Below the pieces are notes generated by a model. That model saw only the letters and a list, made by a program, of their open reading frames with translations, was not told where the DNA came from and did no database searches. A DNA stretch of 64,000 nt from Phycisphaeraceae bacterium (GTDB lineage Bacteria; Planctomycetota; Phycisphaerae; Phycisphaerales; UBA1924). This document shows positions 11,642 through 64,000 of this stretch, one piece after another. Made by a program: the position numbers and the translations under genes. The DNA is taken from assembly GCA_019636655.1 (NCBI GenBank), contig JAHBXB010000003.1, positions 62,001 to 126,000 of the forward strand, read 5' to 3'. Each line of letters opens with the position of its first letter. Position 1 is the first letter of the stretch.

Positions 11642-13192
11642 GTGGGGGCGGAGGCCGCCGTGCTGCAAGTCTGGGTCATCGTCATCTTCGCCGCGGTCTA
11701 CCTGCGCGACTCGATGCCCGGCCCACCCATCGCCTTGAACCTCGGCTCGTTCGATTCCTTCCTCTCCTGGCGCCTCTCAACCGCGGCCGCCACTCTTGGT
11801 GGCATGCTCGGCATCGCCCTCTCCACCCACATCCTCGTCCGATGGTCCGCCTGGCGCCTCATGCACAGGCGATCCGAATCCGCCATCATCACTGCCGACC
11901 GTGTCCTCTGGTCCGGCCAGGCCGCGGCGGTCCTGCTCCACCTCTTCGCCACCCTCTTCCTCGGCTGGACCGACGTCGTCCGCCTTGCCGTCGGCGACCT
12001 CATCGCGGTTGATGAACTCCTCGCCGTCACGCCCGTGCTCCTCACGATCACCGCCGGCTGGTGGTCCTTCTACCCGATCGACCGGTTTCTCCGCGAAGCG
12101 GCTTCCATGCGAACGCTCGATTCCGGCGCCGTCCTCTACTCGCCGCCCACCGCCCGGCAGTATGTGTGGTCCAACGTCCGCCACGGCCTGCTGCTCACCG
12201 CCGCCCCCCTCACCCTCATCCTGATCTGGGTCGATTCCCTGGACCGGCTCGGGGCCTGGGCCCTCGCGGGCTCGTTCGGAGCCCCGATCCGGCGTCTCGC
12301 CGCCACCGTCGATGCCCACCACCTCGGCGGCACGGCCCACCTCGCCGCCCAGCTCCTCGGCGTCGCCGTCGTTTTCATGTTCACCCCGGCCATCATGAGC
12401 CGACTCTGGGACACCATCCCGCTCCCGCCCGGCGAACTCCGCGACCGCCTGATGACCCTCTGCAACCGCTACGGCGTGCGGGTCCGAAACCTGCTCGTCT
12501 GGCGCACCCACGGCGCCCTGGTCAACGGCGCCGTCATGGGTTTCGTCGGCCGCTTCCGCTACATCCTCCTCACCGATGCCCTCCTCGATTCCCTCACCAC
12601 GCGCGAGGTCGAGGCCGTGATGGCCCACGAGGTCGCCCACGTCCGCCGCCGCCACATCCCCTGGATGATCGTCTCGATGATCGCGATCCTCGGCGCCGTC
12701 TCGATCATCGTGGAACTCACCCTCTCCCTCGCCGGCGTCACCATCGGAAACAGCGACTCCGGCCCTCTCCACCAGGCCCTCGAACTCGTTGGGGGCATCC
12801 TCCTCTGGATCGCGGCGATGCTCGCCTTCGGCCTCGTCAGCCGCCGATTCGAATGGCAGGCCGACGCCTTCGCCGCGGCACACCTCTCGGAGTCCACGGC
12901 CCCGCCCCACGAGCCCTCATCGGTCCAGCCTTCCATTGACCTCGTCACCCCCGCCGGCTCCGCCGCCATGATCGACGCGCTGGAGGCCGTCGCACGCCTC
13001 AACCATGTCCCCCGCCATGAGTTCTCCTGGCGCCACGGTTCCATTGCCGTCCGCCAGCACCGCCTCGCCGCCCTGGTCGGGCTCCCCATCCGCTCGCTCC
13101 CTATCGACCGTACCGTCAAGGGTCTCAAAGTCGCCGCGGGCCTCACCGCCCTCGCCGTTGTCGCACTCCTGCTGATCTCATCGCTCCTCTGA
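11642..13192 (+). CDS. M48-family membrane zinc metalloprotease
   Basis: Starts at GTG 11642, behind a GGGGAGG site. The 516-residue product has about four N-terminal membrane helices within residues 8-200, then the soluble protease part. The zinc site HEVAH is at residues 329-333 in the context VMAHEVAHVRRRHIP. The likely third ligand is the Glu of RRFEWQADAFA (around residue 403), as in HtpX/Ste24 proteases. Two more hydrophobic segments flank this region. By family it cuts misfolded or specific membrane proteins on the cytoplasmic side. The substrate is unknown. Confidence 0.88.
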   Translation: MGAEAAVLQVWVIVIFAAVYLRDSMPGPPIALNLGSFDSFLSWRLSTAAATLGGMLGIALSTHILVRWSAWRLMHRRSESAIITADRVLWSGQAAAVLLHLFATLFLGWTDVVRLAVGDLIAVDELLAVTPVLLTITAGWWSFYPIDRFLREAASMRTLDSGAVLYSPPTARQYVWSNVRHGLLLTAAPLTLILIWVDSLDRLGAWALAGSFGAPIRRLAATVDAHHLGGTAHLAAQLLGVAVVFMFTPAIMSRLWDTIPLPPGELRDRLMTLCNRYGVRVRNLLVWRTHGALVNGAVMGFVGRFRYILLTDALLDSLTTREVEAVMAHEVAHVRRRHIPWMIVSMIAILGAVSIIVELTLSLAGVTIGNSDSGPLHQALELVGGILLWIAAMLAFGLVSRRFEWQADAFAAAHLSESTAPPHEPSSVQPSIDLVTPAGSAAMIDALEAVARLNHVPRHEFSWRHGSIAVRQHRLAALVGLPIRSLPIDRTVKGLKVAAGLTALAVVALLLISSLL

Positions 13193-13217
13193 TCGCACCC
13201 CGGTTCACCTCTTCGCC

Positions 13218-14219
13218 ATGCCCCACCAATCCCTTGCCTTCGTCAAGATGCACGGCATCGCGAACGACTACGTCTACCTCGACGCCGTCACCGATCCCTC
13301 CATCGAGTCCGAGTTCGCCGGCCCCGCCGGCGCCGCCCTCGTCCGCGCGATGAGCGACCGCCACACCGGCGTCGGCTCCGACGGCGTCATCCTCCTCTGT
13401 CGTCCCACGCCCTCTGAGTCTGCGGACGTGCGCATGCGCATGTTCAACTCCGACGGCTCCGAATCCCAAATGTGCGGCAACGGAGTCCGCTGCGTCGCCA
13501 AGTTCGCCCACGACCGCCTCGGCGTCCGCGCCAGCCCCATGCGTGTCCAGACCGGCCGCGGCGTCCTTTTGATCGACTACCGCTGCGAGAACGACCGCCT
13601 GGTCGAGGCCACCGTCGATATGGGCGAGCCCATCCTCGACCCCGCGCTCGTCCCCGTCGTCTTCCCCCGCCCCGAGCCCATCCAGCACATCGTCGGCTTC
13701 CCCATCGCCCGCTACATCCCATGGCCCACCGCCCCCTGGATGGAAGCCGCCGGCCTCTCCCCCGCGATGACCTGCGTCTCCATGGGCAACCCCCACGTCG
13801 TCATCTTCTGCGAGAACCCCGACGCCGTCCCCCTCGAGACCGTCGGCCCCTACCTCGAGACCCAGCCCATCTTCCCCGAGCGCATCAACGTCCACTTCGC
13901 ACGCGTGATATCTCCTCGCGAAGCCGCCATGCGAACCTGGGAGCGGGGCGCCGGCATCACCCTGGCCTGCGGCACCGGCGCGTGCGCCGTCGCCGTCGCG
14001 GGCGTCCTCTCGCTCCGCCTCCACACCGAGTCCCTCATTCACCTCCCCGGCGGCGACCTGCGCATCCGCTGGGACACGGTGTCTCGCCACGTCTTCAAGT
14101 CCGGCCCTGCCGCGGATGTCTTTGAGGGCGTTTGGCCCCTCCAACCACCACACGCCGAACCGCCCGGAGCGCAGCCCGCGCCGCCGCACCGCGTTGGCAA
14201 CCCGGCTCCCCTCCGGTAG
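13218..14219 (+). CDS. dapF: Diaminopimelate epimerase
   Basis: A 333-residue enzyme that converts LL- to meso-diaminopimelate for lysine and peptidoglycan synthesis using two cysteines. Both are present: Cys86 in SQMCGNGVRC and Cys251 in LACGTGACA. The start motif VKMHGIANDYVY is typical (usually HGxxNDF). The C-terminal part after about 300 is a Pro/Ala-rich tail beyond the normal end of the family (about 275 residues). It is 25 bases after the protease gene and is followed 54 bases later by the CoA-ligase gene, so it may be part of a loose transcription unit. Confidence 0.96.
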   Translation: MPHQSLAFVKMHGIANDYVYLDAVTDPSIESEFAGPAGAALVRAMSDRHTGVGSDGVILLCRPTPSESADVRMRMFNSDGSESQMCGNGVRCVAKFAHDRLGVRASPMRVQTGRGVLLIDYRCENDRLVEATVDMGEPILDPALVPVVFPRPEPIQHIVGFPIARYIPWPTAPWMEAAGLSPAMTCVSMGNPHVVIFCENPDAVPLETVGPYLETQPIFPERINVHFARVISPREAAMRTWERGAGITLACGTGACAVAVAGVLSLRLHTESLIHLPGGDLRIRWDTVSRHVFKSGPAADVFEGVWPLQPPHAEPPGAQPAPPHRVGNPAPLR

Positions 14220-53226: not shown

Positions 53227-53257
53227 TTGAGCATCGGCCGCGACGGGGTGGTATACT
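53227..53257 (+). promoter_or_regulatory. Possible promoter of the defence cluster
   Basis: TTGAGC (53227-53232) and TATACT (53252-53257) are 19 bases apart, about 91 bases before the first cluster gene. The -10 is good and the spacing is longer than ideal. Confidence 0.35.
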
Positions 53258-53310
53258 GCAGCGGTCGCCTTTCGCTCGCGAGAGCGGGGCCGCCGAAGCA
53301 AAGTCGGGTC

Positions 53311-53322
53311 GCGGCATGCCGC
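53311..53322. promoter_or_regulatory. 12-bp palindrome before the first cluster gene
   Basis: GCGGCATGCCGC is a perfect palindrome 26 bases upstream of ATG 53349 and within the expected mRNA leader. It could be an operator for a regulator of the cluster. Confidence 0.35.
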
Positions 53323-53348
53323 CGCCCGCGAACATTCAGGAGGTTCAC

Positions 53349-54602
53349 ATGGCCAGCGCCACAGCGCTTCGCCCAGTGCCCGTCGAGTTCTTGGTTCACG
53401 TTGACGACTTTCGGTCGCACAGAATTCCGGGCCTCCCAAATTCAAAGGTCGGTTCCTGCTTCATCCGCGCGGATGAGCTAGTCAAGCACTTGGACCTTGA
53501 CGCGTGGCTCGCCGTCAATCCTCGAGTGCCGACGCGCAGCGCGAAGGACGTCCTCACGGGGCACGTTGTGCGCGGTATTCAGGACACCCTGCGAGAAGCG
53601 CCTGCGGACTTCGCGCTGAAGAACCAGGGCCTGTATCTGCTCGTCCAATCTGTCGGAGAGTATGAGCGGCAACGAGATGGTGGTCGCCTGCGCTTCACGA
53701 TGGCGGACCCACTTGCTCACGGGCTATGCAACGGCGGGCACACCTACGCCGCTGTTCGCGAGTATTCGGAACGTGCAGAGAACCCACAAACGCTTGAAGA
53801 GGTCTGGGTTCGCCTCCATCTCTTCGAGGGGATCGATCCCGACAAGGTGCCGGCGATGGCGGAAGGGCTCAACCGCAGTCGCCAGGTAGATGATCCGAGT
53901 CTGATGAATCTCGAGGGTCAGTTCGAGGCGATACGGAAGGTGCTCCACGGGAAGCCGGGCCACAAGGAGATCGCCTACAGGCAGGGCGACCCGGGCAACT
54001 ACTACATCACCGAGATCATCCGGGCGATCATGTTCTTCAACTGCCAGCGGTTCGACAGCCGCAAGCATCCGAGCACACTGTATCGCCAGCAGAAGCAGAT
54101 GCTGGACGCCTTCCGCGATGATGCGGGCCAGCGCCCGTCTCCCATCGCGCTCGTTGTGCCGCATGTTCACGAGATTCTCGTGCTCATGGACATGATCGCG
54201 CAGGCGACGCCGGCCGCGTGCAAGCGACTCAAGCCCGCGTTCGAGCTCGGTCGCATGAAGGGCGAGCGGGCGGGCGTCCGGGCAGGATCTGCCGCGCATA
54301 AGGACACGCCGCTGTTCTTCCTCGGCACGAAGATGGATCACAAGATCCACACTGGCTGGTTGCTCGTCATGCTTGCTGCGTTCAGAGCCAACGTGCGATG
54401 GGACCTGGCGTCTGGCGTATTCGAATGGAAAACCACGTTGGCAGAGTTGCTCCCGAAAGTCATCGACGGCCTGGTCGCCATCTGCGTCCAGGAGTATCGG
54501 GACAACAAGTCCAAGCCCGACGAGATGGCGCGCAACCCAGCTGTGTACGACCGCTGCTACAAGGAAATCGAGCTGGAACTCTTGCGTTCCGGCATCCGCT
54601 GA
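53349..54602 (+). CDS. AIPR-type (abortive infection phage resistance) protein
   Basis: A 417-residue protein behind AGGAGG at five bases before ATG 53349. Residues 88-140 carry the AIPR core: FALKNQGLYLLVQSVGEY, then LAHGLCNGGHTYAAV with the N-G-x-x-T motif at 128-132. The family gives resistance to phages, often in island contexts; its biochemical action is not settled. The rest is helical with no other motif. It is first in a co-directional cluster with helicase, sigma-like and methyltransferase genes, 110 bases before the helicase. Role in sensing or cell shutdown is inference. Confidence 0.8.
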   Translation: MASATALRPVPVEFLVHVDDFRSHRIPGLPNSKVGSCFIRADELVKHLDLDAWLAVNPRVPTRSAKDVLTGHVVRGIQDTLREAPADFALKNQGLYLLVQSVGEYERQRDGGRLRFTMADPLAHGLCNGGHTYAAVREYSERAENPQTLEEVWVRLHLFEGIDPDKVPAMAEGLNRSRQVDDPSLMNLEGQFEAIRKVLHGKPGHKEIAYRQGDPGNYYITEIIRAIMFFNCQRFDSRKHPSTLYRQQKQMLDAFRDDAGQRPSPIALVVPHVHEILVLMDMIAQATPAACKRLKPAFELGRMKGERAGVRAGSAAHKDTPLFFLGTKMDHKIHTGWLLVMLAAFRANVRWDLASGVFEWKTTLAELLPKVIDGLVAICVQEYRDNKSKPDEMARNPAVYDRCYKEIELELLRSGIR

Positions 54603-54712: not shown

Positions 54713-57700
54713 ATGCCACGGATCTTCGACAACATTGAATCCCGCCTCGGAGACGGCCTGCGCGATGCCCTCGCGAGCGCCGCCAGGGGCGATTTCTGCG
54801 TCGGGTATTTCAATCTGCGGGGCTGGCGGCTGCTGGACTCCCCCGTCGACCACTGGTCCGGATCGGACGACAACTGCTGTCGGCTCCTTGTCGGCATGCA
54901 TCGAACGCCGGAGGAGTCGGTTCGGCTCCTTCATTCCGCCACCCCGACTGACGAGTTGGTCGATCAGGCGACGGCGCGCACCCTGCACAAGCAGATTGCG
55001 GAGGACTTTCGTCGGCAGCTCGCCAGTGGCGTCCCGTCCAACGAGGATGAACTCGGGCTTCGACGGCTGGCCGGCCAGCTTCGTTCCCGTCGAGTTCGCA
55101 CCAAGCTGTTTCTTCGCCATCCCCTGCACGCGAAGCTTTACCTCTGCTTCCGGTCTGACCCGACTAGCCCTTCGATCGGATTCCTCGGATCGAGCAACCT
55201 GACGATGCCGGGACTTCTACGGCAGGGAGAGCTCAATGTTGACGTCTTGGATCACGACGCCTGCGTCAAGCTCGCAAAGTGGTTTGATGACCGCTGGAAC
55301 GATCGGTTCTGCATTGACATCAGCAACGAGCTCGCCGACATCATCGACCAGAGTTGGGCGACGGAACAACAGCTCTCGCCGTATCTGCTCTACCTCAAGA
55401 TCGCATACCACCTGTGCCGCGAGGCTCGCGAGGGGGTGGCTCTCTTTGACCTGCCCACGGCCTTCCGAGGACTCCTGTTCGAGTATCAGGCGAAAGCCGT
55501 GCAGTTGGCGGCGCAGCATCTGAACAGACGCGGGGGCGTAATCCTCGGGGACGTGGTCGGACTCGGCAAGACCATGATGGCATCAGCGCTAGCACGGATG
55601 CTCGAAGACGACCTGGGCATCGAGACGCTGATTCTGTGCCCTCCGAAGCTGCAGCGCATGTGGAACGATTACCGCCAGCGGTTTGGCTTGCGCGCCACCA
55701 TTGTTCCGATCAGCCAGGTGCAACAGCAGCTCCCTGAGTTGCGCCGCCACCGGCTGGTCATCATCGACGAGAGCCACAACCTGCGGAATCGGCAGGGCAA
55801 CAGGTACCTCGCTATCCGAGAGTACCTCGCGCAGAACGAGTCCAAGGTGATCATGCTGTCCGCGACTCCGTACAACAAGTCGTACGGCGACCTCGCGAGT
55901 CAACTGCGCTTGTTCGTGGACTCTGACCAGCCACTGCCGTGTCAGCCTGAAAAGTACGTCGAGGAGATCGGGGAGACCGAGTTCATCCGCAGACACCAGT
56001 GCCGTCCAAACACCATCGATGGCTTTGAGAAGAGCATCCACGCGGATGACTGGCGGCAGTTGATGCAGCTGTATCTTGTGCGCCGCACTCGGGGGTTCAT
56101 CCGTCAGCACTACGCTCAGCGCGACGGCACGAACGGTCGGGAGTACCTGACGCTCGCTGACGGCACTCGCAACTACTTCCCCGACCGTGTCCCCAAGGTC
56201 GTGAAGTTCGAGTGCCGCGAGAATGACCCCACGGACCAGTACGCCACGCTCTATTCGCCAGCAGTAGTTCAAGCGTTGAGCACCCTTCACCTGCCGCGAT
56301 ACGGGCTCAAAAACTACCTGGTTGACCCGATTCCACAGGGCATCACGGCCGACGAGCAGCGGGCAATCGACGGCCTGTCGAGAGCCGGACAACGCATGAT
56401 GGGGTTCTGCCGAGTGGGTTTGTTCAAGCGACTGGAGAGCAGCGGCGGCTCCTTCATCCTGTCGCTGGAACGCCACATCCTCCGGAATGCCCTTGCCCAG
56501 CACGCGCTCGATAACGGGTTGCCGCTGCCAATTGGCAAGTCCGACTTTGGGGAGTTTGATCCCTCGCAAACAGATGGTGACGCAGAGCCCTCGCTCTTCG
56601 AGAGCGAGAACGGTGAAGCCGACGATCCCGTCGCCGCCGTGGCCGAGCCCCGCCATCCGACCCGCGACTTCATCCGTTCCAAGGCCGCGGAGCTGTATGC
56701 CCTCTACCGAGATCGCTACGCGAGCCGGTTCCGCTGGCTCCCCTCGGGATTGTTCACCCACGATCTGTCTGAACATCTTCGCCAAGACAGTGATCGCCTC
56801 CTCGCGATCTGTGACGAAGTTGGGCCGTGGCGGCACGCCGAGGACGCGAAGCTCAACGCACTCACAGTCTTATTGCAGTCAACGCATTCGAGCGAGAAGG
56901 TGCTCGTGTTCACCCAATATGCTGACACCGCGGACTTCCTCGTGCGCGAGCTTCAGCGCCGTGGTGTGAGCAGCGTGGCCGCGGCGACGGGCAACAGTTC
57001 CGAAGACCCCACGACGCTGGCGTACCGATTTAGCCCCAGGAGCAATCTTCGCCGGCCTGGACAGGACGGTGACGAGCTTCGTGTCCTCGTTGCGACGGAT
57101 GTGCTGAGCGAGGGGCAGAACCTCCAAGATGCCCATGTGGTTGTGAACTACGACCTTCCGTGGGCCATCATCCGGCTCATTCAGAGGGCGGGCCGCGTGG
57201 ATCGCATTGGCCAACAGTCACCGACAATCCTCTGTTACAGCTTCATGCCCGCGGAGGGTGTGGACACGATCATCCGTCTCCGGACTCGCATTCGCGCCCG
57301 TCTGCGCCAAAACGCGGAGGTCGTGGGGACGGACGAGGCCTTCTTCGAGGACGAGGCCCCGGAGACCGTGATTCGTGACCTCTACAACGAACGGTCGGGC
57401 GTCCTGAACGATGCAGACGGGGGCGAGACGGACCTCGCGTCGTATGCCTACGGCATCTGGAAGGACGCCAAGGAGCGCGACCCGTCGCTGGAGAAGATCG
57501 TGCCGGCGCTGCCGGACGTGGTCTACACCGCCAAGGCAGCCCCACCGGATGCACTCGGGCCGGGCGCAATCGTCTATGTTCGGACCGGTGACGACGTTGA
57601 CGCCCTCGCTCGCGTCAACCCCGAAGGAAAGGTCATCAGCATGTCCCAGCGGGCGATTCTCGACACCGCTGCCTGTTCGCCGGATGCACCGGCGGCTCCG

Positions 57701-58084
57701 CGAGGGGCTTGGCACCACGCAGCGGTGGCGGCGGGTACGTCGCACCTGCTGACAGAGCAGAAGCGCATCGGCGGCCAACTGGGTGGACGCTCGGGTGCTC
57801 GGTTCAGGGTCTACGACCGGCTTAACCGCTTTGTACAGGAACGCGCCGGCACGCTGTTCGTCACGGATGAACTGAAGCGGGCGATCGAAGATGTCTACCG
57901 CACGCCCCTTCGTCCGGTAGCGACCGAAACCCTCAACCGCCAGCTCAAGAGCGGCATCGCCGATGAAGACCTCGCCTCTCTCGTCGTAGCCATGCGTGCC
58001 GAAGGACGGCTCACGGTGCCGGACGACCAGAGGCGAGACCTCCAGCCTCGCCTCATCTGTTCCCTCGGCCTCGTTCAGGGGTAA
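54713..58084 (+). CDS. PLD-nuclease-like and SNF2-type helicase fusion
   Basis: A 1123-residue protein. Residues 1-200 look like a phospholipase-D-type nuclease with one H-x-K element at 139-141 (HPLHAKLYLCF) and GFLGSSNLTMPGL at 156-168. A superfamily 2 helicase follows: Walker A GDVVGLGKT (279-287), DESH box (352-355), MLSATPYN in motif III, and a helicase C-terminal half with RAGRVDRIGQ at about 825. An acidic linker lies at about 615-650. The C-terminal 130 residues are unrecognised. Such enzymes track along DNA in restriction and anti-phage systems. It starts 110 bases after the AIPR gene and ends two bases before the sigma-like gene. Confidence 0.88.
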   Translation: MPRIFDNIESRLGDGLRDALASAARGDFCVGYFNLRGWRLLDSPVDHWSGSDDNCCRLLVGMHRTPEESVRLLHSATPTDELVDQATARTLHKQIAEDFRRQLASGVPSNEDELGLRRLAGQLRSRRVRTKLFLRHPLHAKLYLCFRSDPTSPSIGFLGSSNLTMPGLLRQGELNVDVLDHDACVKLAKWFDDRWNDRFCIDISNELADIIDQSWATEQQLSPYLLYLKIAYHLCREAREGVALFDLPTAFRGLLFEYQAKAVQLAAQHLNRRGGVILGDVVGLGKTMMASALARMLEDDLGIETLILCPPKLQRMWNDYRQRFGLRATIVPISQVQQQLPELRRHRLVIIDESHNLRNRQGNRYLAIREYLAQNESKVIMLSATPYNKSYGDLASQLRLFVDSDQPLPCQPEKYVEEIGETEFIRRHQCRPNTIDGFEKSIHADDWRQLMQLYLVRRTRGFIRQHYAQRDGTNGREYLTLADGTRNYFPDRVPKVVKFECRENDPTDQYATLYSPAVVQALSTLHLPRYGLKNYLVDPIPQGITADEQRAIDGLSRAGQRMMGFCRVGLFKRLESSGGSFILSLERHILRNALAQHALDNGLPLPIGKSDFGEFDPSQTDGDAEPSLFESENGEADDPVAAVAEPRHPTRDFIRSKAAELYALYRDRYASRFRWLPSGLFTHDLSEHLRQDSDRLLAICDEVGPWRHAEDAKLNALTVLLQSTHSSEKVLVFTQYADTADFLVRELQRRGVSSVAAATGNSSEDPTTLAYRFSPRSNLRRPGQDGDELRVLVATDVLSEGQNLQDAHVVVNYDLPWAIIRLIQRAGRVDRIGQQSPTILCYSFMPAEGVDTIIRLRTRIRARLRQNAEVVGTDEAFFEDEAPETVIRDLYNERSGVLNDADGGETDLASYAYGIWKDAKERDPSLEKIVPALPDVVYTAKAAPPDALGPGAIVYVRTGDDVDALARVNPEGKVISMSQRAILDTAACSPDAPAAPRGAWHHAAVAAGTSHLLTEQKRIGGQLGGRSGARFRVYDRLNRFVQERAGTLFVTDELKRAIEDVYRTPLRPVATETLNRQLKSGIADEDLASLVVAMRAEGRLTVPDDQRRDLQPRLICSLGLVQG

Positions 58085-58086
58085 GC

Positions 58087-59919
58087 GTGCAAAGCGTCCG
58101 GGACCATCTCGCTCGCCACTCGTTCCGCAACCTCTTCATTGAGGAGTTGGGATGGGATATCGCATCCGGCGACGCCACGGCAATCGCAGGTCCCACCTCG
58201 TTTACGCTGCGGCGCATCGCACACAAGCGAGGGGTTCAGGCGTTCACCTGCGAACTGACGCCCGAACAGTTGACCGATCGGAAGCTCCTCCGCACGATCG
58301 AGGCGCAGCTGTCTCAGCAGGCGGTGGAGCATGTCGCCATTTACTTCTGTGAACACCTTCGGCAACAGTGCTGGCAATGGGCCGCCGTCGGCCCCTCGGG
58401 CAAGCGACTGCGACATCGCGAGCACCCGTTCACCAGTCGCGTTCCGTCAGACAAGGTCGTCGCGAGGATTCAGGCACTCGCCATTGCATTTGAGGCGGAG
58501 GACGCCACGACACTGTCCGACGTGTCCGCCCGGCTCAGAACCTCTTTCGATAATGATCCGGAGTTCTCCAGCTTCTTTCGAGGTGCCCGCTGGCGTGTGC
58601 TCAGCGACGCGCTCCACCGGCGCTGGCTGCAGACCCAGACGGATGCGGACCTGAACGCCTTTCTCTCGATCCACCTACCCTTGCTCCCCTGGGCGGCAAA
58701 GAAGTTCGCTCCGCGACGGATGGAACAGGAGGATGCCGCAGCAGTCGCGTTCTTCGCCCTGCGCAGGGCTGCCCAGCAGTTCGACCCCGATCACGGTGCG
58801 CAGTTTTCAACTTACGCCACGAAGGCGATGATGCAGTGGATCGGACGACTGGCACCGGTCTACACCGACATGATCAAATGTCGGAGTCACCGGTGCCGTG
58901 TATTCCGCCAATGCGAGCGCCAGGCCGAGCGGCTTGCCGTGACCTCGGGAGAGTGGCGTGGACGCCGCCTGCTCGAGGTGCTGACACTGCGCAGAACAAC
59001 GCAGCCCGCCAGCGTGTTCCGCGCTGTACGGCACATCGACACACTGGATGATCGGTCTGCGCCGTTTCGACGCATGCTGAATGAGCGGCCAGACGACGTG
59101 CCCACCCCTCTTGAACGGATGCTGCACGAAGAGCGAGTTGTTCGAATCCCCGACGTCCTGGCACGCCTGCCGGCCCGCGATGCCGCCATCGTGCAACAGC
59201 GGTTCGGACTCGATGGCAGCGGCGTGGAGGCAACCCTCGAGCAGATAGGAGCCGTACATCGCCTGACCAAGGAGCGGGTGCGACAGATACTTCTTCGGGT
59301 TATCGACGACTTGCGCGACCTGTTCGACGAGCCGACAGAGAGCGAAATCACGAATCGTGCCGCGTGGATGCGAAGGTCTCTGGCGGAAAGCGAGGTTCTC
59401 GCCCCCATGCTTGCTGTTCCTGGCACGGATGTCACCCCGATCCAGAGAGAGCGGGCGATGCCCCTCGCCGCTCGTTCCGCCACATACACGCTCACCCTTC
59501 AAGCCGCTCCTGCACCCAAGCTCTTTGACGGCATTCTGGCGCCGCTACCGGCCAACGGTACTGAGCATCCGGCGGTCCCGGTCGCCGCGGACAATGGTCA
59601 CTCAAGTGAGCTGGCCGACATTCCGGCGATTCCCCAGAACAGCGACATCGACCGAGTTCAGACCGCGCTTCAAGCCGCTGCTGCGGCTGGCGGGATGCTG
59701 GTCACAGAACTCATCACGACGCTGGGAATCAACGGTGGGCGCGTCCGTGCGGCCGTACATGGCCTCGCCAAGTCCGGCGAGGCAGAGCGAGGCCATGACC
59801 TGCGTTGGCGGCTGGTCACACCCAAAGTCGCTCCGACGGCTCCCCAGCCCGCACCGCCATCAATTCGATCCAACCATTCGCTCACGCCTCTGCCATCGCT
59901 ATTCGACGCGCACTCCTGA
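58087..59919 (+). CDS. Sigma-70-like protein with defence-type N-terminal domain and C-terminal winged helix
   Basis: A 610-residue protein from GTG 58087, with AGGGG upstream and two bases after the helicase stop. Residues 8-156 match the N-terminus of the methyltransferase next door. Residues 193-260 are like sigma region 2, with QQFDPDHGAQFSTYATKAMM. Residues 318-348 resemble the region 3 linker (DDRSAPFRRMLNERPDD). Residues 350-412 are like region 4, with LPARDAAIVQQRFGLDG and LEQIGAVHRLTKERVRQIL. Residues 520-576 look like a winged helix. The sigma domain may recruit RNA polymerase to the cluster or be used as a DNA binder. Not a housekeeping sigma. No closely matching architecture is known to me. 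Confidence 0.8.
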   Translation: MQSVRDHLARHSFRNLFIEELGWDIASGDATAIAGPTSFTLRRIAHKRGVQAFTCELTPEQLTDRKLLRTIEAQLSQQAVEHVAIYFCEHLRQQCWQWAAVGPSGKRLRHREHPFTSRVPSDKVVARIQALAIAFEAEDATTLSDVSARLRTSFDNDPEFSSFFRGARWRVLSDALHRRWLQTQTDADLNAFLSIHLPLLPWAAKKFAPRRMEQEDAAAVAFFALRRAAQQFDPDHGAQFSTYATKAMMQWIGRLAPVYTDMIKCRSHRCRVFRQCERQAERLAVTSGEWRGRRLLEVLTLRRTTQPASVFRAVRHIDTLDDRSAPFRRMLNERPDDVPTPLERMLHEERVVRIPDVLARLPARDAAIVQQRFGLDGSGVEATLEQIGAVHRLTKERVRQILLRVIDDLRDLFDEPTESEITNRAAWMRRSLAESEVLAPMLAVPGTDVTPIQRERAMPLAARSATYTLTLQAAPAPKLFDGILAPLPANGTEHPAVPVAADNGHSSELADIPAIPQNSDIDRVQTALQAAAAAGGMLVTELITTLGINGGRVRAAVHGLAKSGEAERGHDLRWRLVTPKVAPTAPQPAPPSIRSNHSLTPLPSLFDAHS

Positions 59920-59939: not shown

Positions 59940-62900
59940 ATGAGTCATGCCGCCATCGATCCTGAACCCGTTCGTCGCCTACTCGATGGGCATGACTTTG
60001 TAGCGCTGTTCCGCGAGCATCTGGGCTGGGATCGGCACGACCACACGATGGACGTTCCGGTCGGCTCGCACACCTTCCGGCTCGGAGCCGTCGCGGAGAA
60101 GCGGAACTTCGCCGTCTACCTGTGTTCGCCCGATCCCCGGGGTCGCGTGCCCGATCGAACCACTCGCGACGCCATCGAGCGTGTGCTCGCGAAGACCGCC
60201 CACGAGCACCTCGTCATCTTCGCCGACAAGGATCGCCGCCACCAGGTATGGATGTGGGTCCGCCGCGTCCCGGGCAAGCCCGCCAGTCAGCAGTCTTACG
60301 AGTGGTTCAAGGGCCAGCCCACCGGCCAAATCCTCCAACGCGTCTTGCCCACGCTCGCCATCGCCTTCGAGGATGACGACACGACCACCCTTCCGGACGT
60401 GCGCGCCAGGGTCGCCGCGGCGTTCGATGTCGAGAAGGTCACCAAGAAGTTCTTCGAGCGCTTCCAGAAGGAACACGCAGCGTTCCACAAGTTCATCGAC
60501 GGCATCAAGGTCGCCGCCGACCGTGACTGGTACGCCTCAGTGATGCTGAACCGGCTGATGTTCTGCTACTTCATCCAGAAGAAGGGGCTGCTCGACGGTG
60601 ATCGTGACTACTTGCGCAACCGGCTCTCCCGCCTTCAGACCACCAAGGGGAAGGACAAGTTCTGGACCTTCTACCAGCACTTTCTGCTGCGGCTGTTCCA
60701 CGAGGGGCTTAGCACCAAGCCCGCCCAACGTTCGAAGGACCTGGATGCGCTCATCGGCCGCATCCCTTACCTGAACGGCGGCCTGTTCGATATCCACGAG
60801 ATCGAGGAGCGGTACGACGACATCCAGATCCCGGACGCCGCGTTCGAGAAGCTCTTCAAGTTCTTCGACGAGTACCGCTGGCACCTGGACGAGCGCCCGC
60901 TGCGCGAGAACAACGAGATCAACCCCGACGTCCTCGGCTACATCTTCGAGAAGTACATCAACCAGAAGCAGATGGGGGCCTACTACACGAAGGAAGACAT
61001 CACCGGGTACATCTCGCAGAACACGATCATCCCCTACATCCTCGATCAGGCCGCAGCGGCCTGTACCATCGCGTTCGTGCCGCCTGCCGCCCCGAACGCG
61101 GGTGGCTCCGTCTGGCGGCTCCTCCAGGACGATCCCGACCGCTATCTCTACGAACCCGTCCGGCGCGGCGTCATTGACGACACTGGCGACGTGGTGCCGC
61201 TGCCGGAAGAGATCGCGGCGGGTGTGGACAATGTCTCCAAGCGGGGCGGGTGGAACAAACCGGCCACCGACCCCTTCGGGCTGCCGACCGAGACGTGGCG
61301 CGAGCATGTCGCCAGGCGAGAGCGGTGCCTGGACCTCCGGCGCAAGCTTGCCGCCGGGGAGGTGTCCGCGGTCAATGACCTGGTGACCCTCAACCTCGAC
61401 ATCCGACAGTTTGCGGCGGACGTCATCGAGCGCTGCGAAGGGCCGGATCTTCTGAGGGCCATGTGGAAGGCCGTCGAGTCCGTCACCGTGCTCGACCCGA
61501 CGTGCGGCTCCGGCGCGTTCCTGTTCGCGGCCCTGAATGTTCTGGAACCCCTCTACGAGGCGTGCCTTGACCGCATGGGCGCGTTCCTCGACACGCTGGC
61601 CCGCGATGCGGCCGCCGCCGCTGAGGGAAAGGGGCGCGCCCCAGCCCCGGACACGTTCGCCGACTTCTGCCGCATCCTGGACCGCGTCGGGGACCATCCA
61701 AACCGCCGTTACTTCATCCTCAAATCCATCATCGTCAACAACCTCTACGGCGTGGACCTCATGGAGGAGGCGTGCGAGATCTGCAAGCTGCGACTCTTCC
61801 TCAAGCTCGTCGCGCAGGTCGAGGAAGGTCTCATTGAAAAGATCGAACCTCTTCCGGACATCGACTTCAACATCCGATCCGGCAACACCCTGGTCGGCTT
61901 TGCAAACCTGCAATCGGTCCGTGCCGCACTCGCAGGCAGGCTTGATTTCGGCGGCGAGTTCGACCGCATATCGCAACAAGCCACTGCGGCCGCAGCGGAG
62001 TTTGAGCGGTTTCGCAACGCTCAGACGGCATACAACGCCGACGTCGCGGCACTCGTCGCTACGAAGCAAGCGCTACGCCAACAGCTACGAACGCTGGAGG
62101 GGTCCCTGAACGTGCTGCTGGCTGGCGAATACGGAGTGCCCGTCGATCGAGCGGGCGCGCTCGACAAATGGCGATCCCGCTATCAGCCGTTTCACTGGAG
62201 CGTTGACTTTCACGCGATCATGGTTACCGGCGGGTTGTCTATTATCATTGGCAACCCCCCGTACATCGAACTCAAGGAGCTGAAGGGCTACACGGTGCGT
62301 GGGTATGCGACCGAGCCCGCTGGGAATCTCTACGCGCTGGTCATCGAGCAATGCCTGAGTCTACTTAGTCCGCAGGGCCGACTCGGGATGATCGTTCCAG
62401 TGTCGTCGATCTCGACTGAGCGCTACGAGTCACTCCAACGACTGCTCACCGCGCGTGCGCTGTGGTATAGCGCGTACGACGACAGGCCGTCACGACTGTT
62501 CGATGGGTTAGAGCACATCCGTCTCACAATCCACCTCGTCGCCCCGCCCGATGCGGCCCCCTCCATGATGGCCACGCGATACCACAAGTGGTCGGCTACG
62601 GAGCGCCCCACTCTGTTTGAGCGACTGGCGTATGTGCCGGCAACGCCGTGCCTCGTGCCGGGCACTCTTCCCAAGTTGAACTTTCACACTGAACGCTCGA
62701 TTATCGCACGACTACAGACCTGTCGGCATCGTTTGTCGGAGTTCATCAGCCGGAATGGACGCCACAGCATCTACTACTCGCGCAAGGTGGGCTACTTTCT
62801 CCAAGTATTGAACTTCGAACCCGAAGTGCTGGACGGTCAAGGGGAACGGCGTCCTCCTTCGGAATTCAAAGAGCTGTCGTTTCGTACTCGCGCTGAAGCG

Positions 62901-63296
62901 GACGCCGCATTGTGCTGCCTGAACTCAAACCTCTTCTACTGGTTCGTCACGGTCTTCTCTGACTGTCGCCACCTCAACCGAAGGGAGGTCGAGGCATTCC
63001 CATTCGACCTCGGTGTGTTGTCTGCAGCTCAAAGCGAACGATCGAGTGCTCTGGCCAGAACGCTCATGAACGACCTACGGGCACATTCAGAGCAGCGGCG
63101 CATGAAGTTCAAGCACGACCACCTGACGGTGCAGTGCATCATCCCGAAGCGAAGCAAGGCGGTGATTGACACGATCGACCTGTGGCTGGCAGAAGTTCTT
63201 GGACTCTCTGCAGTAGAGGCCGACTTCGTCATGAACTACGACTTCAAGTACCGTATGGGGGACTCGGCCGCGGACGAGGAGGAGGATGAGGAATGA
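59940..63296 (+). CDS. Eco57I-class DNA methyltransferase/restriction enzyme
   Basis: A 1118-residue protein started at ATG 59940, 20 bases after the sigma-like stop. The N-terminal domain (14-165) is shared with the sigma-like protein. Residues 360-400 contain NPDVLGYIFEKYINQKQMGA and the Y-Y-T-K-E element typical of this class. Motif I VLDPTCGSGAFLF is at 517-529 and the catalytic NPPY at 772-775, with a 240-residue helical insert between them. The last 300 residues are a likely target-recognition domain. It would methylate adenine and may also cut through its N-terminal part. An acidic tail (EEEDEE) ends it. Confidence 0.9.
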   Translation: MSHAAIDPEPVRRLLDGHDFVALFREHLGWDRHDHTMDVPVGSHTFRLGAVAEKRNFAVYLCSPDPRGRVPDRTTRDAIERVLAKTAHEHLVIFADKDRRHQVWMWVRRVPGKPASQQSYEWFKGQPTGQILQRVLPTLAIAFEDDDTTTLPDVRARVAAAFDVEKVTKKFFERFQKEHAAFHKFIDGIKVAADRDWYASVMLNRLMFCYFIQKKGLLDGDRDYLRNRLSRLQTTKGKDKFWTFYQHFLLRLFHEGLSTKPAQRSKDLDALIGRIPYLNGGLFDIHEIEERYDDIQIPDAAFEKLFKFFDEYRWHLDERPLRENNEINPDVLGYIFEKYINQKQMGAYYTKEDITGYISQNTIIPYILDQAAAACTIAFVPPAAPNAGGSVWRLLQDDPDRYLYEPVRRGVIDDTGDVVPLPEEIAAGVDNVSKRGGWNKPATDPFGLPTETWREHVARRERCLDLRRKLAAGEVSAVNDLVTLNLDIRQFAADVIERCEGPDLLRAMWKAVESVTVLDPTCGSGAFLFAALNVLEPLYEACLDRMGAFLDTLARDAAAAAEGKGRAPAPDTFADFCRILDRVGDHPNRRYFILKSIIVNNLYGVDLMEEACEICKLRLFLKLVAQVEEGLIEKIEPLPDIDFNIRSGNTLVGFANLQSVRAALAGRLDFGGEFDRISQQATAAAAEFERFRNAQTAYNADVAALVATKQALRQQLRTLEGSLNVLLAGEYGVPVDRAGALDKWRSRYQPFHWSVDFHAIMVTGGLSIIIGNPPYIELKELKGYTVRGYATEPAGNLYALVIEQCLSLLSPQGRLGMIVPVSSISTERYESLQRLLTARALWYSAYDDRPSRLFDGLEHIRLTIHLVAPPDAAPSMMATRYHKWSATERPTLFERLAYVPATPCLVPGTLPKLNFHTERSIIARLQTCRHRLSEFISRNGRHSIYYSRKVGYFLQVLNFEPEVLDGQGERRPPSEFKELSFRTRAEADAALCCLNSNLFYWFVTVFSDCRHLNRREVEAFPFDLGVLSAAQSERSSALARTLMNDLRAHSEQRRMKFKHDHLTVQCIIPKRSKAVIDTIDLWLAEVLGLSAVEADFVMNYDFKYRMGDSAADEEEDEE

Positions 63297-63871
63297 TCCA
63301 GAACAACCCACAAGATGTGTCCTCCGCCTTCGAGTCACTGCTGGAGGAGGTCGAGGCCGAAGTTGACTTCGTGAACACGGTCGGAGCTCGCTCCTTCGAG
63401 GGGCGTGACTACGACCGAGCCAAGGAAGCCCTCGCACGCGCCGGCGTGCTGATCGCGTTCCGCGACAAAGTAGCCGCCCTGCGGACGGAGTGGCAGACCA
63501 TCGCCGCCGTTGCCGAGCAGGAGGAAGACGAGGAGACGAAGGCCGCGCGCCGGAACCTGGGCCGGCTTCGCAACGGCCTGAGGACCCCGGAAGCCGCGTA
63601 CCGCGAGCCCATCCTCCGGGTGCTTCAGAGCATGGGGGGGTCAGGCAAGGCCGCGGAGGTGCTGGAGAAGGTCGGCCAAATGATGAAGCCCAAGCTCCAG
63701 TCGGTTGACTTCGAGCCACTGGCGTCGGGACCGGACAACCCACGCTGGCGCAATGCTGCCCAGTGGGCCAGGAACACGATGGTGAAGGAGGGATTGCTGA
63801 AGTCCGACTCGCCGCGGGGCGTGTGGGAGGTGACGGACCTGGGACGACAGGCGGTGACCAAGCAGCCGTAG
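63293..63871 (+). CDS. Mrr-N-like winged-helix protein
   Basis: A 192-residue protein that overlaps the methyltransferase stop by four bases (ATGA). Residues 1-90 are an acidic coiled coil. Residues 100-192 resemble the Mrr_N winged helix: PILRVLQSMGGSGKAAEVLE, then WRNAAQWARNTMVKEGLL and SPRGVWEVTDLGRQ. In Mrr this module binds DNA in front of a nuclease domain, but here no nuclease domain follows. It may be the DNA-reading or control part of the cluster, or an adaptor of the methyltransferase. Confidence 0.75.
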   Translation: MIQNNPQDVSSAFESLLEEVEAEVDFVNTVGARSFEGRDYDRAKEALARAGVLIAFRDKVAALRTEWQTIAAVAEQEEDEETKAARRNLGRLRNGLRTPEAAYREPILRVLQSMGGSGKAAEVLEKVGQMMKPKLQSVDFEPLASGPDNPRWRNAAQWARNTMVKEGLLKSDSPRGVWEVTDLGRQAVTKQP

Positions 63872-63894: not shown

Positions 63895-64000
63895 ATGGTT
63901 CATCTTTCCGCGAGATTGGTGTGGCACGATCGGGCATGGGACGGCCATGTTTGCGATCAGCCCGGCAAGAACGTCTACTGCGTGGCGCACAAGCACGTGC
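63895..64000 (+). CDS. Unknown gene cut by the window edge
   Basis: An ATG at 63895 follows GGAGAG by 11 bases and 23 bases after the previous stop. The visible start is MVHLSARLVWHDRAWDGHVC, followed by a second Cys 11 residues later. The pattern W-H-D-x-x-W-D-G-x-x-C with a later Y-C looks like a small zinc- or metal-binding motif. No name can be given from 35 residues. It reads in line with the cluster and is probably part of it. Confidence 0.6.
   Translation, partial: MVHLSARLVWHDRAWDGHVCDQPGKNVYCVAHKHV

Follow-up and report, generated by a model that had tools for sequence, protein, structure and literature searches.

The window, the whole stretch of 64,000 nucleotides analyzed here, encodes a sigma-70-like protein in which a paralogue of the N-terminal domain of the adjoining methyltransferase is fused to sigma regions 1.2/2 and 4, and this fusion is a genuine accessory subunit of a restriction-like operon whose core consists of a PLD-SNF2 helicase and a Type IIG-like adenine methyltransferase. 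Sequence comparisons indicate that the fusion is real, conserved, and functionally constrained. For the lineage of the window, we favor, with a probability of roughly 40%, the reading that it serves the restriction complex as a DNA-targeting adaptor and is not a free factor that programs RNA polymerase. Judging from the protein families involved, the operon probably serves in phage defense.

The fusion protein and its operon

The operon encodes, in order, an AIPR-family protein, the PLD-SNF2 helicase, the sigma fusion, the Type IIG-like adenine methyltransferase, an Mrr_N protein, and a RecD2-like helicase. Its features are listed in window coordinates.

53248..53348, + strand: conserved promoter and leader, identical or nearly so in four genomes, ending at the likely start codon (53349)
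53349..54602, + strand: AIPR-family protein (PF10592, 52.3 bits, cut-off 25; weak MzaE match; dN/dS 0.03-0.05)
54713..58084, + strand: PLD(HKD)-SNF2 helicase (SNF2, Helicase_C, and sub-threshold PLD in Pfam; PADLOC C3a139 'HKD+Snf2')
58087..59919, + strand: sigma fusion protein, whole (ORF, Pfam, PADLOC, NCBIfam, homologue alignment, AlphaFold model)
58087..58581, + strand: N-domain of the fusion (aa 1-165), paralogue of the methyltransferase N-domain (alignment; PDLC03628 7-163; model)
58573..58872, + strand: sigma region 1.2/2 (aa 163-262; PF04542; match to sigma70; low dN/dS)
59143..59322, + strand: sigma region 4 (aa 353-412; PF04545; -35 helix residues kept)
59632..59817, + strand: C-terminal winged helix (aa 516-577; model pLDDT about 88-96; present in 4/7 homologues)
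59940..63296, + strand: Type IIG-like N6-adenine methyltransferase (Eco57I class) with the same N-domain as the fusion (PF07669, 80 bits; PDLC03628 full length, 1143 bits)
63293..63871, + strand: Mrr_N winged-helix protein (PF14338, 54.9 bits; recurs beside the helicase/methyltransferase core in other genomes)
63895..64000, + strand: start of the RecD2-like helicase gene, which continues beyond the window (L068:13896-17456; TIGR01448, 230 bits)

The AIPR reading frame was listed from 53316, and its likely start at 53349 follows an AGGAGG. The PLD-SNF2 helicase carries the motifs HAK...GSSNLT, GLGKT, and DESH, and the methyltransferase has the gamma-type adenine methyltransferase motifs DPTCGSGAFL (DPxCGSG) and NPPY. 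The RecD2-like helicase is 96% identical to that of L009 versus 83% for the sigma gene, possibly reflecting a different transfer history.

The fusion gene starts with GTG and encodes 610 aa. A preliminary description of this DNA had recognized sigma regions 2 and 4, a large N-terminal domain, and a C-terminal winged helix in the predicted protein, and these assignments held up. Both sigma regions exceeded the Pfam gathering thresholds, Sigma70_r2 at aa 196-247 with 29.3 bits (cut-off 24) and Sigma70_r4 at aa 357-410 with 39.1 bits (cut-off 24.1). In an AlphaFold model built from 22 aligned sequences, aa 163-260 adopted a sigma fold that superposed on region 1.2/2 of sigma70 (7n4e_F) with an rmsd of 1.6 A over 92 residues (Z 13.3). 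Sigma factors made up all of the top 50 PDB matches, and the model resembled RpoD/RpoS. The winged helix was modeled with high confidence (pLDDT about 90 or more) and is found only in the closest orthologues of the window protein. The N-terminal domain is present as described and is, in addition, paralogous to the N-terminal domain of the methyltransferase itself: residues 2-197 of the fusion align with the N terminus of the neighboring enzyme at 32% identity (E 1e-20), and both N-domains match positions 7-163 or more of the PADLOC Type IIG model PDLC03628.

The modeled topology of the N-domain is alpha-alpha-beta3-alpha-beta3. A search of the PDB with this fold gave no clear match, the top hits (Z 7.2) being epimerase-type folds; PD-(D/E)XK nucleases appeared lower, at about Z 5-6, among them the Type IIG enzyme BpuSI with a weak Z of 5.5 that was tied with unrelated folds. 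No D...ExK nuclease motif was recognized in the N-domain, which has a conserved A-x-K where the ExK would be expected, and any nuclease activity of this domain is no more than putative. The seven known sigma fusions formed one clade in a tree of 33 N-domains (support 89/86), and their sigma domains formed one group on long branches in the sigma tree (support 83). The fusion is the product of a copy of the methyltransferase N-domain being attached to a complete sigma-70 region 1.2-to-4 module. Because the fusions cluster in both trees, this duplication and fusion probably happened only once, although the support is moderate.

Linkage, distribution, and selection

Six further fusions, 31-89% identical to that of the window, were found in planctomycete genomes and in one IMG/VR contig, giving seven in total. 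The fusion is present in 4 of 397 genomes of the class (G000, G582, G672, and G604), and the other carriers are G055, L009, and the IMG/VR contig L099. It adjoins the helicase gene in G000, G055, L009, G582, and G672 and the Mrr_N gene in G604 and L099. All seven thus have components of the PLD-SNF2 helicase/IIG-like methyltransferase/Mrr_N system as neighbors, and two gene orders occur. The preliminary description had regarded the gene as part of the system, placing it 2 bases behind the helicase gene and 20 bases before the methyltransferase gene. Both spacings are correct (58084 to 58087, and 59919 to the methyltransferase ATG at 59940), and its view of the gene is borne out by the seven neighborhoods. 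A bystander housekeeping sigma gene was rejected on the basis of the fusion, the linkage, and the two gene orders.

The first five genes of the operon form one conserved unit in L009 and in G582/L090, and the same block occurs in G055/L066, with different flanking genes. The core of just two genes, helicase and methyltransferase, has a much broader distribution: besides planctomycetes, it was found on plasmids of Synechocystis, Picosynechococcus, Anabaena, Rhodococcus, and Pelobacter. Most of these operons have no sigma gene, and the Synechocystis one has a PIN-toxin pair in the place between the helicase and methyltransferase genes. The Synechocystis genes slr6095-97, initially taken for the same locus, were rejected as belonging to a different Type I system. 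Accessory genes beside the core vary among five loci (L062, L065, L078, L094, and L095) and include PIN (VapC), AAA_21 with DUF4276, GmrSD-HNH, and SIR2. This variation suggests that the accessory genes of related operons are swap-in effector modules. A scan of the planctomycete phylum with the N-domain profile gave no further sigma fusion and none outside a single class, a scan of genome contigs, which picks up close relatives only, gave L009, and no match was found among phage records or, with a single sequence as the query, in viral contigs. A second sigma and helicase pair, unrelated to that of the window, lies in a Type I restriction cluster on the Enterococcus faecium plasmid pW142 (L195, 9641-14084), where the gene of a canonical sigma-70 factor overlaps that of a DpdF-like/C3a193 helicase.

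Selection on the fusion was estimated by comparing four orthologues. The dN/dS values of the window gene versus its orthologues were 0.06-0.08 for the N-domain, 0.01-0.09 for sigma region 2, 0.11-0.20 for sigma region 4, 0.13-0.17 for the winged helix, and about 0.4 for the disordered linker, indicating that the N-domain and sigma domains are under strong purifying selection. In the comparison with L066, dS was 0.35 for the sigma gene and 0.87 for the helicase gene, a difference which hints that the sigma gene recombined separately. The L066 copy (12066-13898) has LTKEGVRLI in place of LTKERVRQI in the region 4 recognition helix, which should damage -35 binding and is either a real change or an assembly error.

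The methyltransferase showed another pattern. Over its first 600 residues it shares about 93% identity with that of L009, versus 29-47% over residues 700-1118 (about 62040-63296), and this latter part differs sharply from both L009 and L090 and not from L066. The alignments thus indicate that the target-recognition half of the enzyme has been exchanged between orthologous systems while the fusion stayed constant. This speaks against any recognition of the methylation site by the fusion, and a role as a specificity subunit for that site is disfavored for the same reason.

Candidate roles of the sigma half

The sigma contact residues of the fusions were compared in the numbering of E. coli sigma70, with roles that we take from general knowledge of that protein. 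The promoter-DNA residues F427, T429, Y430, R441, E585, and R588 are kept in all seven fusions, as is D403. E407 is kept in none, the residues at this position being V, V, V, I, D, I, and V, with the single acidic one in L092. For comparison, a glutamate occupies position 407 in 95% of 23 sigma proteins from planctomycetes and in 90% of 73 from viral contigs, and of eight sigma proteins inspected in the genome that carries the window, seven, ECF types among them, are acidic there. At position 406, the window protein and its two nearest relatives have A, and the other fusions have Q. The window protein, with A406 and V407, therefore lacks the region 2.2 core-polymerase contacts (Q/E406 and E/D407), which are both kept only in L092. 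W433 and W434 are both lost in five of the seven fusions and half-lost in the other two. The substituted region 2.2 surface, EDAAxxxFFAxR, is conserved as far as the 58%-identical orthologue. This pattern suggests that docking to the beta-prime clamp is weakened in most fusions with the promoter-DNA contacts kept, and for the lineage of the window the sequence evidence leans against a normal polymerase-bound sigma factor. It is a sequence proxy only, since core-binding sigma factors of the ECF type also have N409F and since L092 looks competent.

The three functions floated in the preliminary description, namely activation of the cluster upon infection, redirection of RNA polymerase, and DNA opening by the sigma fold, are still candidates. 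If the fusion is an adaptor, its N-domain would dock where the methyltransferase docks, on the helicase or the complex, and its sigma half would bring promoter-type DNA recognition through the -10 non-template strand and the -35 helix. Several observations argue for this reading: the N-domains of the two neighboring genes are paralogous; the neighbors of the fusion are always system genes, in either gene order; it is encoded within the operon itself, as gene three after a gap of 2 bp, rather than as a separate regulator; the N-domain and sigma region 2 have a low dN/dS compared to the linker; the promoter-DNA residues persist in 7/7 fusions, E407 is gone from all of them, and Q406 is lost in the window and the two closest orthologues; and the replaced region 2.2 surface is itself conserved. 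Other observations argue against it. L092, which has D403, Q406, and an acidic residue at 407, could engage core polymerase in the normal way. Sigma region 2 normally reads -10 DNA only when it is held by polymerase, and the W433/W434 pair, which starts melting, is lost in 5/7 fusions. The exchange of methyltransferase specificity with a constant fusion means, in addition, that the methylation site is not what would be read. More specifically, the subunit may dock via the borrowed methyltransferase domain and recognize promoter DNA or the transcription machinery, thereby aiming restriction at DNA that is transcribed or bears promoters, a proposal that we regard as tentative and rather doubtful. 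If true, it would amount to transcription-coupled restriction without CRISPR.

It is possible, although somewhat unlikely, that the fusion is instead a genuine alternative sigma factor in control of the operon or of a few host genes, with the N-domain holding it on the helicase or sensing the status of the complex and releasing it on infection. Regions 1.2, 2, and 4 are all present, with a sigma fold and under purifying selection, as such a factor would have them; L092 retains D403, Q406, and D407; and MzaA of the MZA system is a canonical sigma factor. The operon also has a conserved promoter and leader that occur as a single copy in the genome. The sequences upstream of the four orthologous operons are unalignable as far as GTGGTATACT; from there to the likely AIPR start, 100 bp of leader are almost unchanged. 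This region carries the extended -10 element TGG-TATACT (53249-53257) and a GC-rich leader with the perfect palindrome GCGGCATGCCGC. Its conservation suggests that the operon is expressed and controlled as a unit. No strong match to it was found elsewhere in a class sample and no family match in Rfam, and its folding stability was nothing unusual (z -0.34). However, TGG-TATACT resembles an ordinary extended -10 element as used by the housekeeping sigma factor, the leader is absent upstream of the sigma-bearing loci L092 and L099, and the core-contact residues 406/407 are lost in the lineage of the window.

We consider it improbable that the sigma half is a decoy or guard that mimics the host sigma factor, senses phage anti-sigma or polymerase-takeover proteins, and triggers the complex or the AIPR protein. 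Weakened polymerase docking with a retained sigma fold and region 4 would suit such a role, as would the occupation of the system's accessory slots by other second-line modules (AAA_21-DUF4276, SIR2, PIN, and GmrSD), but there is no known phage partner, and no fast-evolving contact surface was seen in the fusion, sigma region 2 being its most conserved part. Less probable still is an accessory that binds or opens DNA independently of transcription and uses its fold only to load the helicase; the winged helix added in the lineage of the window and the retained aromatic pocket for single-strand DNA are consistent with it, whereas the -35 recognition helix, unneeded for plain loading, has been kept too. 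A decaying passenger without function, which the many related operons lacking the fusion and the recognition-helix changes in L066 might suggest, is very improbable given a dN/dS far below 1 among the four orthologues compared and an intact reading frame in 7/7 inspected copies.

Comparison with known systems

Annotation libraries now split the fusion family into 'IIG enzyme' and 'MzaA' fragments: the methyltransferase matches the PADLOC REase_MTase_IIG model PDLC03628 over its full length, whereas the fusion matches it only in the N-domain, without the methyltransferase. By its defining genes, the operon of the window is not MZA, DISARM, or BREX. It shares with class 1 DISARM (DrmD SNF2, DrmMI methyltransferase, and DrmC PLD) an SNF2 helicase, a PLD domain, and an adenine methyltransferase, but PLD and SNF2 are combined in one protein, the DrmD score is 138.7 versus a cut-off of 610, and DrmA and DrmB are absent among the operon genes. 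The nearest solved relatives of the methyltransferase are PglX/BrxX of BREX (64.5 bits versus a cut-off of 500), and PglZ and BrxC are absent among the operon genes. AIPR and HKD-helicase themes are common to the window operon and the MORC/Z1/AIPR restriction-type operons of Iyer 2008 (PMC2292703); no MORC/MutL ATPase is present among the operon genes, and that study makes no mention of a sigma factor. In the literature searched, outside which most subscription papers fell, no description of an N-domain/sigma fusion was found.

The closest parallel is MZA. The preliminary description had taken sigma factors to be foreign to defense systems, a premise contradicted by the validated mzaABCDE system, whose MzaA is a named sigma-70 factor (NCBIfam NF041931; PMC9523054). 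Both operons encode a sigma-70 family protein together with an AIPR protein and a helicase, and MzaA is the best NCBIfam match of the fusion, at 65.8 bits and thus under the curated cut-off of 800. The mzaABCDE operon, seen in Thalassospira, has genes for an ATP-binding protein, Z1, and PD-(D/E)XK in place of PLD-SNF2 plus IIG, and neither a MutL-type ATPase nor a Z1 helicase was found in Pfam scans of the window operon genes. The window's AIPR protein scored 52.3 bits with PF10592 versus only 16.5 bits for MzaE. Unlike the fusion, the Thalassospira MzaA that was inspected has ankyrin repeats and is canonical at the polymerase-contact sites, and it groups with RpoD in the tree, apart from the fusions. 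An MzaA orthologue was therefore rejected by score, operon content, and tree. No established job for the sigma-type protein was found for either MZA or the window operon. Sigma-type proteins occur in two unrelated defense-type operons, MZA and that of the window, and in the latter a sigma half fused to a copy of an operon partner's domain, with a changed polymerase-contact surface, offers a testable handle on whether immune systems exploit promoter recognition to locate or detect foreign DNA.
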